From Actinomycetes bacterium (GTDB lineage Bacteria; Actinomycetota; Actinomycetes; Actinomycetales; Cellulomonadaceae), in NCBI GenBank assembly GCA_021778635.1, contig JAJYCD010000034.1:1-33926 (forward strand): a stretch of DNA of 33,926 nucleotides, given 5' to 3'. Position numbers and translations under genes: made by a program. The notes beneath the pieces were generated by a model. The model did not search any database. It was not told the DNA's origin and was given only the letters and a program-made list of their open reading frames with translations. Within the stretch, counting starts at the first letter, position 1. Each line of letters starts with the position of its first letter. Of the stretch, positions 28,858 to 31,389 are shown in pieces.

Positions 28858-29274
28858 GTGGACGACGACCGCGACGAGACGATCACCCGACTGCTCACGA
28901 CGACGCGACGCTGGGCCGTCGTCGGGCTGTCTGCCAACGACCGTCGCCCTGCCTACTCCGTCTCCCGCTTCCTCCAGCAGGCGCTGTCTATCGAGATCGT
29001 CCCGGTGCACCCGAAGGCGGAGACCGTGCACGGCGCCGTCGGCTACGCGACCCTCGCCGAGGTTCCCGGGCCGGTGGACGTCGTCGACGTGTTCGTGCGC
29101 TCCGCGCTTGCGGGGTCGGTCGTCGACGAGGCGATCGCGCTCGGCGCGCACGCAGTCTGGCTCCAGCTCGGCGTCGTCGACGCGGCGGCGGCGGCGCGGG
29201 CGCGTGCGGCCGGTCTCGACGTCGTGATGGATGCGTGCCCGGCGATCGAGGCTCCGCGCCTCGGGCTCGTCTGA
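28858..29274 (+). CDS. CoA-binding domain protein (YccU-like)
   Basis: A 138-residue Rossmann-fold protein of the CoA-binding family that includes YccU. RWAVVGLSANDRRPAYSVSRFL forms the nucleotide loop, IVPVHPKAETVHG follows, and VVDVFVRSALAGSVVDEAIALGAHAVWLQLGVVDA is the typical C-terminal half. There is no succinyl-CoA ligase catalytic domain, so it probably binds CoA or a nucleotide without a known reaction. GTG 28858 fits the family N-terminus, although the frame is open far upstream. It is divergent from pgsA. Confidence 0.82.
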   Translation: MDDDRDETITRLLTTTRRWAVVGLSANDRRPAYSVSRFLQQALSIEIVPVHPKAETVHGAVGYATLAEVPGPVDVVDVFVRSALAGSVVDEAIALGAHAVWLQLGVVDAAAAARARAAGLDVVMDACPAIEAPRLGLV

Positions 29275-29345
29275 GGCTGCACCGCGCCGATCACCTCGAC
29301 CGAGGCTGTGGGGCACGTCACGACGATGGCCACCCCGGCGTCGCG

Positions 29346-29351
29346 TATCAT
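29346..29351 (+). promoter_or_regulatory. Possible -10 box before the DEAD-box gene
   Basis: TATCAT is a good -10 box, with no convincing -35. Transcription from it would start near 29357, leaving a leader of about 157 bases. An upstream promoter is also possible. Confidence 0.4.
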
Positions 29352-29353
29352 GG

Positions 29354-29503
29354 GATCACTCATGGAGTAAGTCGCTCCCCTGGTGTTCTGGGTCGCGGCG
29401 GGACGTCTGGACGATACAGACACCCGCTGCCGCGGTGTGTTCGGGATGGCGACCCGTGGGCGGTCCCCCTGGCCTCCCTCGTGACGCTCCCGCCCCAGTG
29501 ATC
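29354..29503 (+). ncRNA. Candidate structured 5' leader of the DEAD-box helicase gene
   Basis: Several complementary segments nest in order. GATCACT (29354-29360) pairs with AGTGATC (29497-29503), and GGGTCGC (29390-29396) with GCGACCC (29449-29455). Inside this, GTCTG (29405-29409) pairs with CAGAC (29417-29421), and a hairpin at 29420-29438 has a TGCC loop. GGGCGG (29458-29463) pairs with CCGCCC (29490-29495). The result resembles a multi-arm cis-regulatory RNA just before the start codon. If transcription starts at 29357, the outer stem loses three pairs. I recognise no known riboswitch. Confidence 0.45.
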
Positions 29504-29514
29504 GGTCAACTCTG

Positions 29515-31389
29515 ATGACGCCCTCTGCCCCTGAGATCTCTGCGCCGACGGACGCTCCTGCGGATGACGCAGCGACGTCGACGTTCGCGGACCTGAACCT
29601 GCCCGAGTCGTTGCTCCGAGCGATCGAGATGCTGGGCTTCACGACCCCCTCCGCCATCCAGGAGCAGGCGATCCCCGCGCTTCTCGCCGGCCGCGACATC
29701 ACGGGGGTGGCGCAGACCGGCACGGGAAAGACCGCGGCGTTCGGTCTGCCGCTGCTCGCGTCCATCGACCCGGCTGTCCGTCAGGTCCAGGCCGTCGTGC
29801 TGACTCCCACGCGTGAGCTCGCGATGCAGGTGGCCGAGGCCATCGAGTCCTTCGCGACCCAGCTCCCGGGCCTCGGCGTTCTCGCGGTGTACGGCGGCTC
29901 GCCGTTCCTGCCGCAGCAACGCGCCCTCCAGCGTGGTGCCCAGGTCGTCGTCGGAACACCGGGGCGGGTGATCGATCACCTCGAGAGGCATACGCTCCGG
30001 CTCGACGACGTGAAGTTCCTCGTCCTCGACGAGGCCGACGAGATGCTGCGCATGGGATTCGCCGAGGACGTCGACAAGATCTTCGCCGCCGCACCGGTCG
30101 AGCGCCAGGTCGCCCTGTTCTCGGCGACGATGCCACCCGCGATCCGAGCCGTCGCGGCGAATCATCTCCGCTCACCCGTCGAGATCGCCGTCACGCGGCA
30201 GTCGTCGACGGTGACGAGCGTGCGCCAGACCTACGCGGTCGTTCCCTATCGCCACAAGGCCGGTGCCCTCGCTCGAGTGCTCGCGGTCTCCGATGCGGAC
30301 GCCGCGATCGTCTTCGTGCGGACTCGAGGGGCGGCCGAGGAGGTCGGTAGCGCACTCGTCGAGCGCGGCATCTCAGCCGCCTACATCTCGGGAGATGTCG
30401 CGCAGGCCGAGCGGGAGAAGATCGTCGAGCGCCTACGCTCCGGTGCGCTCAACGTGCTCGTGGCGACGGACGTGGCCGCTCGCGGCCTCGACGTCGACCG
30501 GGTCGGACTCGTGGTCAACTTCGACGTCCCGACCGAGCCCGAGGGATACGTGCACCGCATCGGACGCACCGGCCGCGCCGGGCGCACCGGCGAGGCTCTC
30601 ACCTTCGTGACACCGAACGAGCAGGGTCGATTGCGATCCATCGAGCGCATCACGCGGCAGAAGCTTCAGGAGGTGGCGATCCCGTCTCCCGCAGCCGTGT
30701 CCGAGCACCGTGTTCTCCAGCTTCTGAGCCGAGTCGCTGAGCGCACACAGGCCGGACGCCTGGACCTCTACCGAGAGGCGGTCGCGGTCTTCCTCGCACA
30801 GAACCCGGGAACAGATCCGATCGACCTGGTCGCTGTCATCTCGGCACTCGCCGTGGGCGACGACGGCCCGGTCGCACGACCGACGGGCGACGACCTCGAC
30901 GACGCACTGAGCCGCGCACACCTCACGCCCGAGCACGACGACAGGGCGGGACGGTCCGGCGGACAAGGGGCGCGCGCCGACCGGAGCCCGAACCGGCGAC
31001 CGGCAACCGGAACCCGGTACCGATTGGCCGTCGGGCACACGCACGGCGCCCAGGCGGGCGCGATCGTCGGGGCGCTGACCAACGAGGGTGGTCTCGTCGG
31101 CAAGGATCTCGGCAAGATCGACATCTTCCCGAGCTTCAGCCTCGTCGAGATCCCTGGGGGTCTCACCCCCGATGCCTTCGACCGGATCTCACGGGCTCGA
31201 GTGGCAGGGCGACCACTGCGCATCAGGCTCGACGACGGCCCGCCGGAGCGCGGTGCGCACCACGCCTCGGCACGCCCGTCCGGGCCCGGCACCCACCGCA
31301 GTGCCGATCGCCATCCGAGTGACGCCCGGACCGCCGATCGGCGTCCCTCGACGGAGCGACCCGGCCGGTTCCACGCCAACCCCCGCTGA
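29515..31389 (+). CDS. deaD: DEAD-box RNA helicase with DbpA-type RNA-binding domain
   Basis: A 624-residue DEAD-box helicase of the DeaD/CsdA type, which remodels RNA and assists ribosome assembly, often in the cold. The Q motif region is GFTTPSAIQEQAIP near residue 42; AQTGTGKT lies near 65, LVLDEADEM near 169, SAT near 203, and HRIGRTGRAGR near 346. A DbpA-like RNA-binding domain (about 500-575, TRYRLAVGHTHGAQAG onward) precedes an Arg/Ser/Pro-rich disordered tail, typical of actinobacterial forms. The ATG lacks a strong ribosome binding site and lies behind a long foldable leader. The symbol is by family. Confidence 0.9.
   Translation: MTPSAPEISAPTDAPADDAATSTFADLNLPESLLRAIEMLGFTTPSAIQEQAIPALLAGRDITGVAQTGTGKTAAFGLPLLASIDPAVRQVQAVVLTPTRELAMQVAEAIESFATQLPGLGVLAVYGGSPFLPQQRALQRGAQVVVGTPGRVIDHLERHTLRLDDVKFLVLDEADEMLRMGFAEDVDKIFAAAPVERQVALFSATMPPAIRAVAANHLRSPVEIAVTRQSSTVTSVRQTYAVVPYRHKAGALARVLAVSDADAAIVFVRTRGAAEEVGSALVERGISAAYISGDVAQAEREKIVERLRSGALNVLVATDVAARGLDVDRVGLVVNFDVPTEPEGYVHRIGRTGRAGRTGEALTFVTPNEQGRLRSIERITRQKLQEVAIPSPAAVSEHRVLQLLSRVAERTQAGRLDLYREAVAVFLAQNPGTDPIDLVAVISALAVGDDGPVARPTGDDLDDALSRAHLTPEHDDRAGRSGGQGARADRSPNRRPATGTRYRLAVGHTHGAQAGAIVGALTNEGGLVGKDLGKIDIFPSFSLVEIPGGLTPDAFDRISRARVAGRPLRIRLDDGPPERGAHHASARPSGPGTHRSADRHPSDARTADRRPSTERPGRFHANPR

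Follow-up and report, generated by a model that had tools for sequence, protein, structure and literature searches.

A conserved and apparently structured mRNA leader upstream of a DeaD-type RNA helicase gene in Cellulomonadaceae

The rne 5' UTR and the leaders of ribosomal protein genes are autogenous structured leaders of RNA-processing genes. The locus described here likewise has a 5' UTR, apparently structured, before a gene for an RNA-binding protein; it differs in that the gene encodes a DEAD-box helicase, that no Rfam match was obtained and that autoregulation is only proposed. In other bacteria, helicases of the DeaD type belong to the cold-shock proteins, and the cspA and csdA cold-shock leaders of E. 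coli are long 5' UTRs before genes for a cold-shock RNA chaperone or helicase. A long 5' UTR before a gene for such a protein is a shared trait, whereas neither the present leader nor the leaders of 20 relatives matched a family in Rfam. In Synechocystis, expression of the RNA helicase gene crhR is controlled partly by the helicase itself and partly by temperature (PMC3485376), which provides a precedent for helicase autoregulation; that system is cyanobacterial, and no conserved leader fold is described in the available part of the report. The uORFC-6-1 motif is a structured element before hflX, whose product has RNA helicase activity; it contains an upstream ORF (PMC8632094), whereas in the leaders studied here no reading frame is open in all 50 sequences (36, 22 and 19 of 50 for the three frames). 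A leader of a DEAD-box helicase gene was not found in the main texts of PMC6429828, PMC2864571, PMC11109978 and PMC8632094, nor in the accessible results of a wider literature search, and the element is likely to be unpublished.

The window, i.e. the whole stretch of DNA that was analyzed, comprises 33,926 nucleotides. Its features around the helicase gene are summarized in Table 1. Relatives have an element of about 150 nt in common upstream of the same helicase, with blocks in a fixed order. Typically, GGAGUUCGUCGC and UCCCGCGUGUUCGUGUG come before a variable hairpin, GGUGUGUUCGGGAGNGCGACC separates this hairpin from a second one, which is also variable, and ACUCC, ACGAA(A)CGGU and ATG follow. 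The region would represent the 5' untranslated leader of the deaD-type helicase mRNA. In the proposed branched fold, helix P1 would close the structure and enclose P2 and P3, beyond which a GU-rich internal loop would lead to hairpin P4; hairpin P5 is placed after the 3' strand of P2 and before that of P1. The start codon would be preceded by a conserved element (ACGAAACGGU or a similar sequence) in the place where a Shine-Dalgarno sequence is expected; by eye, no such sequence is visible before the helicase ATG, as the original prediction for this DNA had stated.

Table 1. Features of the helicase promoter, leader and gene in the window
Feature	Position	Strand	Basis and remarks
Crp/GlxR-type dyad GTG-N7-TCAC of the helicase promoter, GTGGGGCACGTCAC	29308..29321	+	motif match; center at -44 from predicted start
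-10 box TATCAT	29346..29351	+	predicted (inferred) start about 29358, about 6 nt before P1
P1 5' strand GGAGU	29364..29368	+	RNAalifold on A4; A2 pair statistics
P2 5' strand GUCGC	29371..29375	+	RNAalifold on A4; A2 pair statistics
P3 5' strand UCCC	29376..29379	+	placed by eye; window row out of step in the sequence-only alignment
P4 apical hairpin	29395..29430	+	folding; contains GTCTG/CAGAC
3' side of GU-rich internal loop, GGUGUGUU	29434..29441	+	sequence-conserved in alignments
P3 3' strand GGGA	29443..29446	+	RNAalifold on A4
P2 3' strand GCGAC	29449..29453	+	RNAalifold on A4
P5 hairpin between 3' strands of P2 and P1; outer stem mismatched in the window	29455..29481	+	
P1 3' strand GCUCC	29486..29490	+	RNAalifold on A4
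Pre-start element, conserved, located 8 nt before ATG: GAUCGGU (its common form is ACGAA(A)CGGU)	29500..29506	+	alignments
DEAD-box RNA helicase gene, 624 residues	29515..31389	+	ORF list; Pfam: DEAD, Helicase_C, DeaD dimerisation and DbpA RNA-binding domains

A covariance model built from 15 leaders (R1) was used to search the genomes of the family with strict filters at E ≤ 0.001. Matches were obtained in 138 of 221 genomes, 136 of them with a single match and two with a double match. The second matches in these two genomes (G215 and G223) are located inside same-strand ORFs of 348 and 519 codons, respectively, with no helicase nearby; since they lie within ORFs and the helicase is absent from both stretches, they were taken as chance. 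The association with one gene is consistent: each of the 57 loci with flanking sequence is followed by the helicase gene in the same orientation. These loci come from 57 genomes (30 from the family search with R1, 27 from a search of the order with R2, a model built on the alignment A2 described below). The 83 family genomes lacking an R1 match represent an upper bound on leader absence. Five loci among them (L006, L007, L009, L029 and L082) match R1 once the locus alone is searched, and diverged leaders were recognized by eye in L022, L024, L028 and L083. Two loci of genus g5, L084 and L085, may lack the leader. They encode the same helicase, no leader is recognizable by eye or with R2, and the stretch before the start codon reads GAAAGCGGTCC. 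The leaders of L028, L029 and L083 (genera g13, g17 and g15) are longer and contain additional sequence around P4 or P5.

The leader appears to fold into a shape that has been kept through evolution in many relatives. In a sequence-only MAFFT alignment of 25 leaders (A4), chosen from 50 for ease of alignment, RNAalifold predicted three nested helices, P1 (GGAGU/ACUCC), P2 (GUCGC/GCGAC) and P3 (UCCC/GGGA), but not P5. Double-sided changes are found in two of 15 pairs in this alignment, of which one stands isolated and does not belong to P1-P3. The covariation term of A4 is near nil (-0.08). The larger alignment A2 contains the 50 loci matched by R1 among 70 searched. It was fitted to the structure of the model itself, which favors that structure; 89.6% of its pair cells are standard pairs, compared with 82.3% after shuffling, and none of 500 shuffles, which ignore relatedness, reached the observed value. 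Genus g11 has P1 replaced by UCGCA/UGCGA, a pairing picked by eye and then checked. The compensatory changes called for in relatives exist, with double-sided changes at 14 of 22 pairs in A2. However, when all column pairs were tested for covariation against a home-made null based on a tree (60 simulations), none reached E < 0.05, whether the 50 leaders were aligned as in A2 or by sequence only. In the ranking on A2 the top pair is outside any helix, and pairs of P5 occupy ranks 2 to 4 of 9,453 column pairs. The sequences of P1-P3 are so conserved that the test has little power for these helices, and covariation support is thin.

Folding energy alone was considered as evidence and set aside as weak. 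The original prediction described the leader as strongly foldable, which was not borne out: its minimum free energy of -71.3 kcal/mol compares with a shuffled mean of -68.3 kcal/mol (z -0.68), and 51 of 200 shuffles fold equally well. Averaged over 21 genera, z is only -0.72 when the whole leader is considered. For the P5 stretch this average is -1.89, so that P5 folds better than its shuffles, genus g6 being an exception; for the P4 stretch, where the effect is weaker, it is -0.66. Single-sequence folding gives the comparative fold as its optimum in only seven of 50 leaders, L021 among them, and another structure in the remaining 43; the penalty has a median of genus means of 4.5 kcal/mol and amounts to 7-10 kcal/mol in the window.

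Four nested pairings had originally been drawn for this leader, and all four perfect complementarities are present: GATCACT (29354-29360) with AGTGATC (29497-29503), GGGTCGC (29390-29396) with GCGACCC (29449-29455), GTCTG (29405-29409) with CAGAC (29417-29421), and GGGCGG (29458-29463) with CCGCCC (29490-29495). The nested structure did not hold as drawn, most of the four helices not being among the conserved ones. The outer helix is missing in the same-genus relative L003 (GGCCTACT / AGCGATC), and the predicted transcription start would leave four of the seven 5'-arm bases outside the transcript. L003 does keep GGGTCGC/GCGACCC, for which no counterpart is visible by eye in other genera. This helix competes with P2, as GCGAC (29449-29453) alternatively pairs with GTCGC (29371-29375). 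Only seven of 50 leaders have another GTCGC between the two strands of P3. GGGCGG/CCGCCC is also kept in L003, but only with three G-U pairs, and again has no counterpart by eye in other genera, whereas GTCTG/CAGAC exists as drawn but belongs to the variable hairpin P4. The wider claim of a structured cis-acting leader before the helicase gene is supported by the comparison with relatives. The observation is partly confirmed, being real on grounds other than those first given. The original interpretation is partly supported as well, with the thermal or helicase-dependent sensor that it suggested as a candidate reading.

The promoter elements are conserved together with the leader. TANNNT is found 9-17 nt upstream of GGAG in 50 of 50 leaders, compared with five of 150 control windows; with a -10 box in this position throughout, the transcript should begin a few nucleotides before P1. 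The start predicted for the window lies upstream of position 29390, in agreement with the original placement of the leader. A strict sigma-70 scan that required a -35 box found no promoter at this place, which would fit an activator replacing the -35 box. The dyad GTG-N7-TCAC is present upstream in 49 of 50 A2 leaders (0.175 expected from mononucleotide shuffling), the exception being L089 of family f20. Relative to the predicted start, its centers fall at about -55, -44 or -65 and are thus spaced by 10-11 bp. The 33.9-kb window as a whole contains nine matches to the dyad, which is about chance (5.86 expected). The dyad corresponds to the GlxR consensus GTG(N)8CAC and resembles the consensus for Crp of Streptomyces, GTG(N)6GNCAC, both as given in PMC10033298. 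The genome from which the window was taken encodes a Crp/Fnr-family homologue (L178; best PDB match 3h3u, E 1.2e-84). The dyad is regarded as a putative Crp/GlxR site, the protein being assigned from the motif.

Leaders of similar layout are present in other families of the order. In family f13, the loci L031 and L137-L150 have their own conserved leader upstream of the helicase, with the same layout and a different sequence. A separate alignment of 12 of the 15 f13 loci (A3) was prepared, and RNAalifold predicted P1 GGAGC/GCUCC, P2 CCGC/GCGG, P3 GGCCC/GGGCC and P5 GGACC/GGUCC for f13. This topology matches P1-P3 of the own family (f1), with other P2 and P3 sequences and with hairpin P5 in addition. 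Double-sided changes are found in three of 19 f13 pairs, the covariation term is small (-0.66), and in the rows of L142 and L031 some helices, paired by eye and then checked, pair at only four of five positions. The f20 leaders were also fitted by eye and then checked, with GGAGC/GCUCC combined with GCGA/UCGC or UGACCC/GGGUCG. The dyad GTG-N8-CAC is present in 15 of 15 f13 loci from 24 genomes searched (0.46 expected), with centers at -49, -55 or -60, so that the phasing seen in f1 is not kept; in f20 it was found in two of seven loci examined.

R2 also matches the f20 leaders L130, L134 and L136 and the f13 leader L141 (E 4e-4). In the order, R2 gave matches in 33 of 396 genomes at E ≤ 0.01: 29 of the own family, one of f20 (E 1e-8) and three weak ones (E 0.004-0.009). 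In the class, it matched three of 296 genomes, two of the own family and one weakly (E 0.009). R3 matched 15 of the 396 genomes of the order, all of them f13, and on 25 loci of other lineages it gave a single match, L030, at E 0.36. Outside f1, f13 and f20, R2 and R3 gave no convincing leader, although the helicase is also encoded in further families of the order. By eye, the sequence before the helicase gene in L030 (family f12) partially fits the f13 layout.

When the whole window was searched with Rfam 15 (4,227 families), the gathering threshold was reached only by an FMN riboswitch and by no family in the leader, in line with the original view that the leader belongs to no recognized class. 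The best sub-threshold match in 29250-29600 was mir-138, with an E-value of 1.1 and on the opposite strand. The FMN riboswitch (RF00050, 81.6 bits) is located at 413-574 on the forward strand. Terminator-like sites were searched in 29200-29620 of the window only, and none was found. A leader peptide or attenuator was considered and rejected, as no frame is open throughout the 50 leaders and the leader of the window has no terminator. The element usually occurs once per genome, in front of a single gene that encodes an RNA-binding enzyme. Together with the lack of a common leader ORF and of a terminator in the leader of the window, this suggests control of translation or decay rather than attenuation.

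Judged from sequence comparison, the leader probably controls how much helicase is made. The best explanation, to which we give about an even chance, is a new cis-regulatory leader of the deaD-type helicase mRNA, most likely serving autogenous control by the helicase; its mechanism, including sensor and direction of effect, is a matter of inference. Control of this single helicase gene would most likely be post-transcriptional and probably autogenous: the helicase, or an RNA-folding capacity that depends on it, would act on the leader and thereby set the translation or the decay of its own mRNA. The DbpA-type RNA-binding domain of the helicase (Pfam) was counted in favor of autogenous control. 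That the element as a rule stands in one copy before one gene suggests autogenous control rather than a metabolite riboswitch; the same arrangement leaves room for a thermosensor too.

Such a thermosensor, in which the fold of the leader and not the helicase would sense temperature and raise translation or mRNA stability in the cold, like the E. coli cold-shock mRNAs, is considered unlikely. It would suit the role of DeaD-type helicases elsewhere as cold-shock proteins, and in many leaders no more than about 4 kcal/mol separates the comparative fold from the optimal one. Temperature control is also reported for crhR in the available part of PMC3485376. No Rfam thermosensor matched, however, and the conserved loop and pre-start sequences would exceed what a melting hairpin needs.

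A two-state switch is a distinctly doubtful alternative. The 5' strand of P1/P2 (GUUCGUCGC) would alternatively pair with the pre-start element (GCGACGAAC) and hide the translation start, which would be exposed when P1/P2 form. Complementarity of 7-11 bp is present in genera g3, g6, g7, g12 and g21 (genus-median p ≤ 0.01), sequence changes in g6 preserve it, and the combined p over 20 genera is 0.0013, uncorrected for relatedness. Against this, the genus-median p exceeds 0.05 in 15 of 20 genera, the genus of the window included (g1, 0.34), and a test of cognate versus swapped partners showed no preference (p 0.46). Among eight region pairs tested, the lowest p (0.013, uncorrected) was obtained for the internal loop with the pre-start element, with p 0.09 in a second test. 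The alternative pairing, strong in five genera and not in the other 15, was kept both as a rival and as the basis of a related, equally doubtful model, in which the core helices would compete with a helix over the translation start, the helicase would refold its own mRNA, and the Crp-type promoter above would link the leader to the carbon/cAMP state.

Recognition of the GU-rich internal loop (CGUGUUCGUGUG / GGUGUGUU) by another trans-acting factor or a small ligand appears very unlikely. The loop strands are conserved in sequence while the flanking hairpin varies, but one gene, usually one copy per genome and an RNA helicase as the target are unlike metabolite riboswitches, and the sense-strand 9-mers that four leaders share with the 23S rRNA locus are not above shuffles. 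Mimicry of 23S rRNA was accordingly rejected (3, 3, 1 and 2 sense 9-mers, shuffled means 4.2-4.7, using the 23S locus of G001 with flanks); the antisense 9-mers shared with this locus numbered 8, 4, 3 and 7 in the four leaders, counted without a control. A suspected likeness of GTTCGGGATGG in the window to antisense 5S rRNA was likewise rejected, as most relatives read GTTCGGGAG or similar in this place. Just as improbable is a passive conservation, in which the fold would do no more than shield the 5' end or keep promoter and start codon apart: P1 starts a few nucleotides from the predicted start, as a protecting stem would, but several helices, conserved loops and a conserved pre-start element would exceed such needs.

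Taken as a cis-regulatory leader of the helicase mRNA, the element adds an RNA without a match in Rfam 15 to the leaders tied to DEAD-box helicases, and offers a way to ask whether these helicases regulate themselves through structured mRNA; dozens of natural leader variants can be used for mutational design. The Crp/GlxR-type dyad in nearly all examined leaders of two families suggests two layers of control over an RNA-remodeling enzyme. If the leader were indeed to sense helicase activity, cells would gauge their RNA-unwinding capacity directly.
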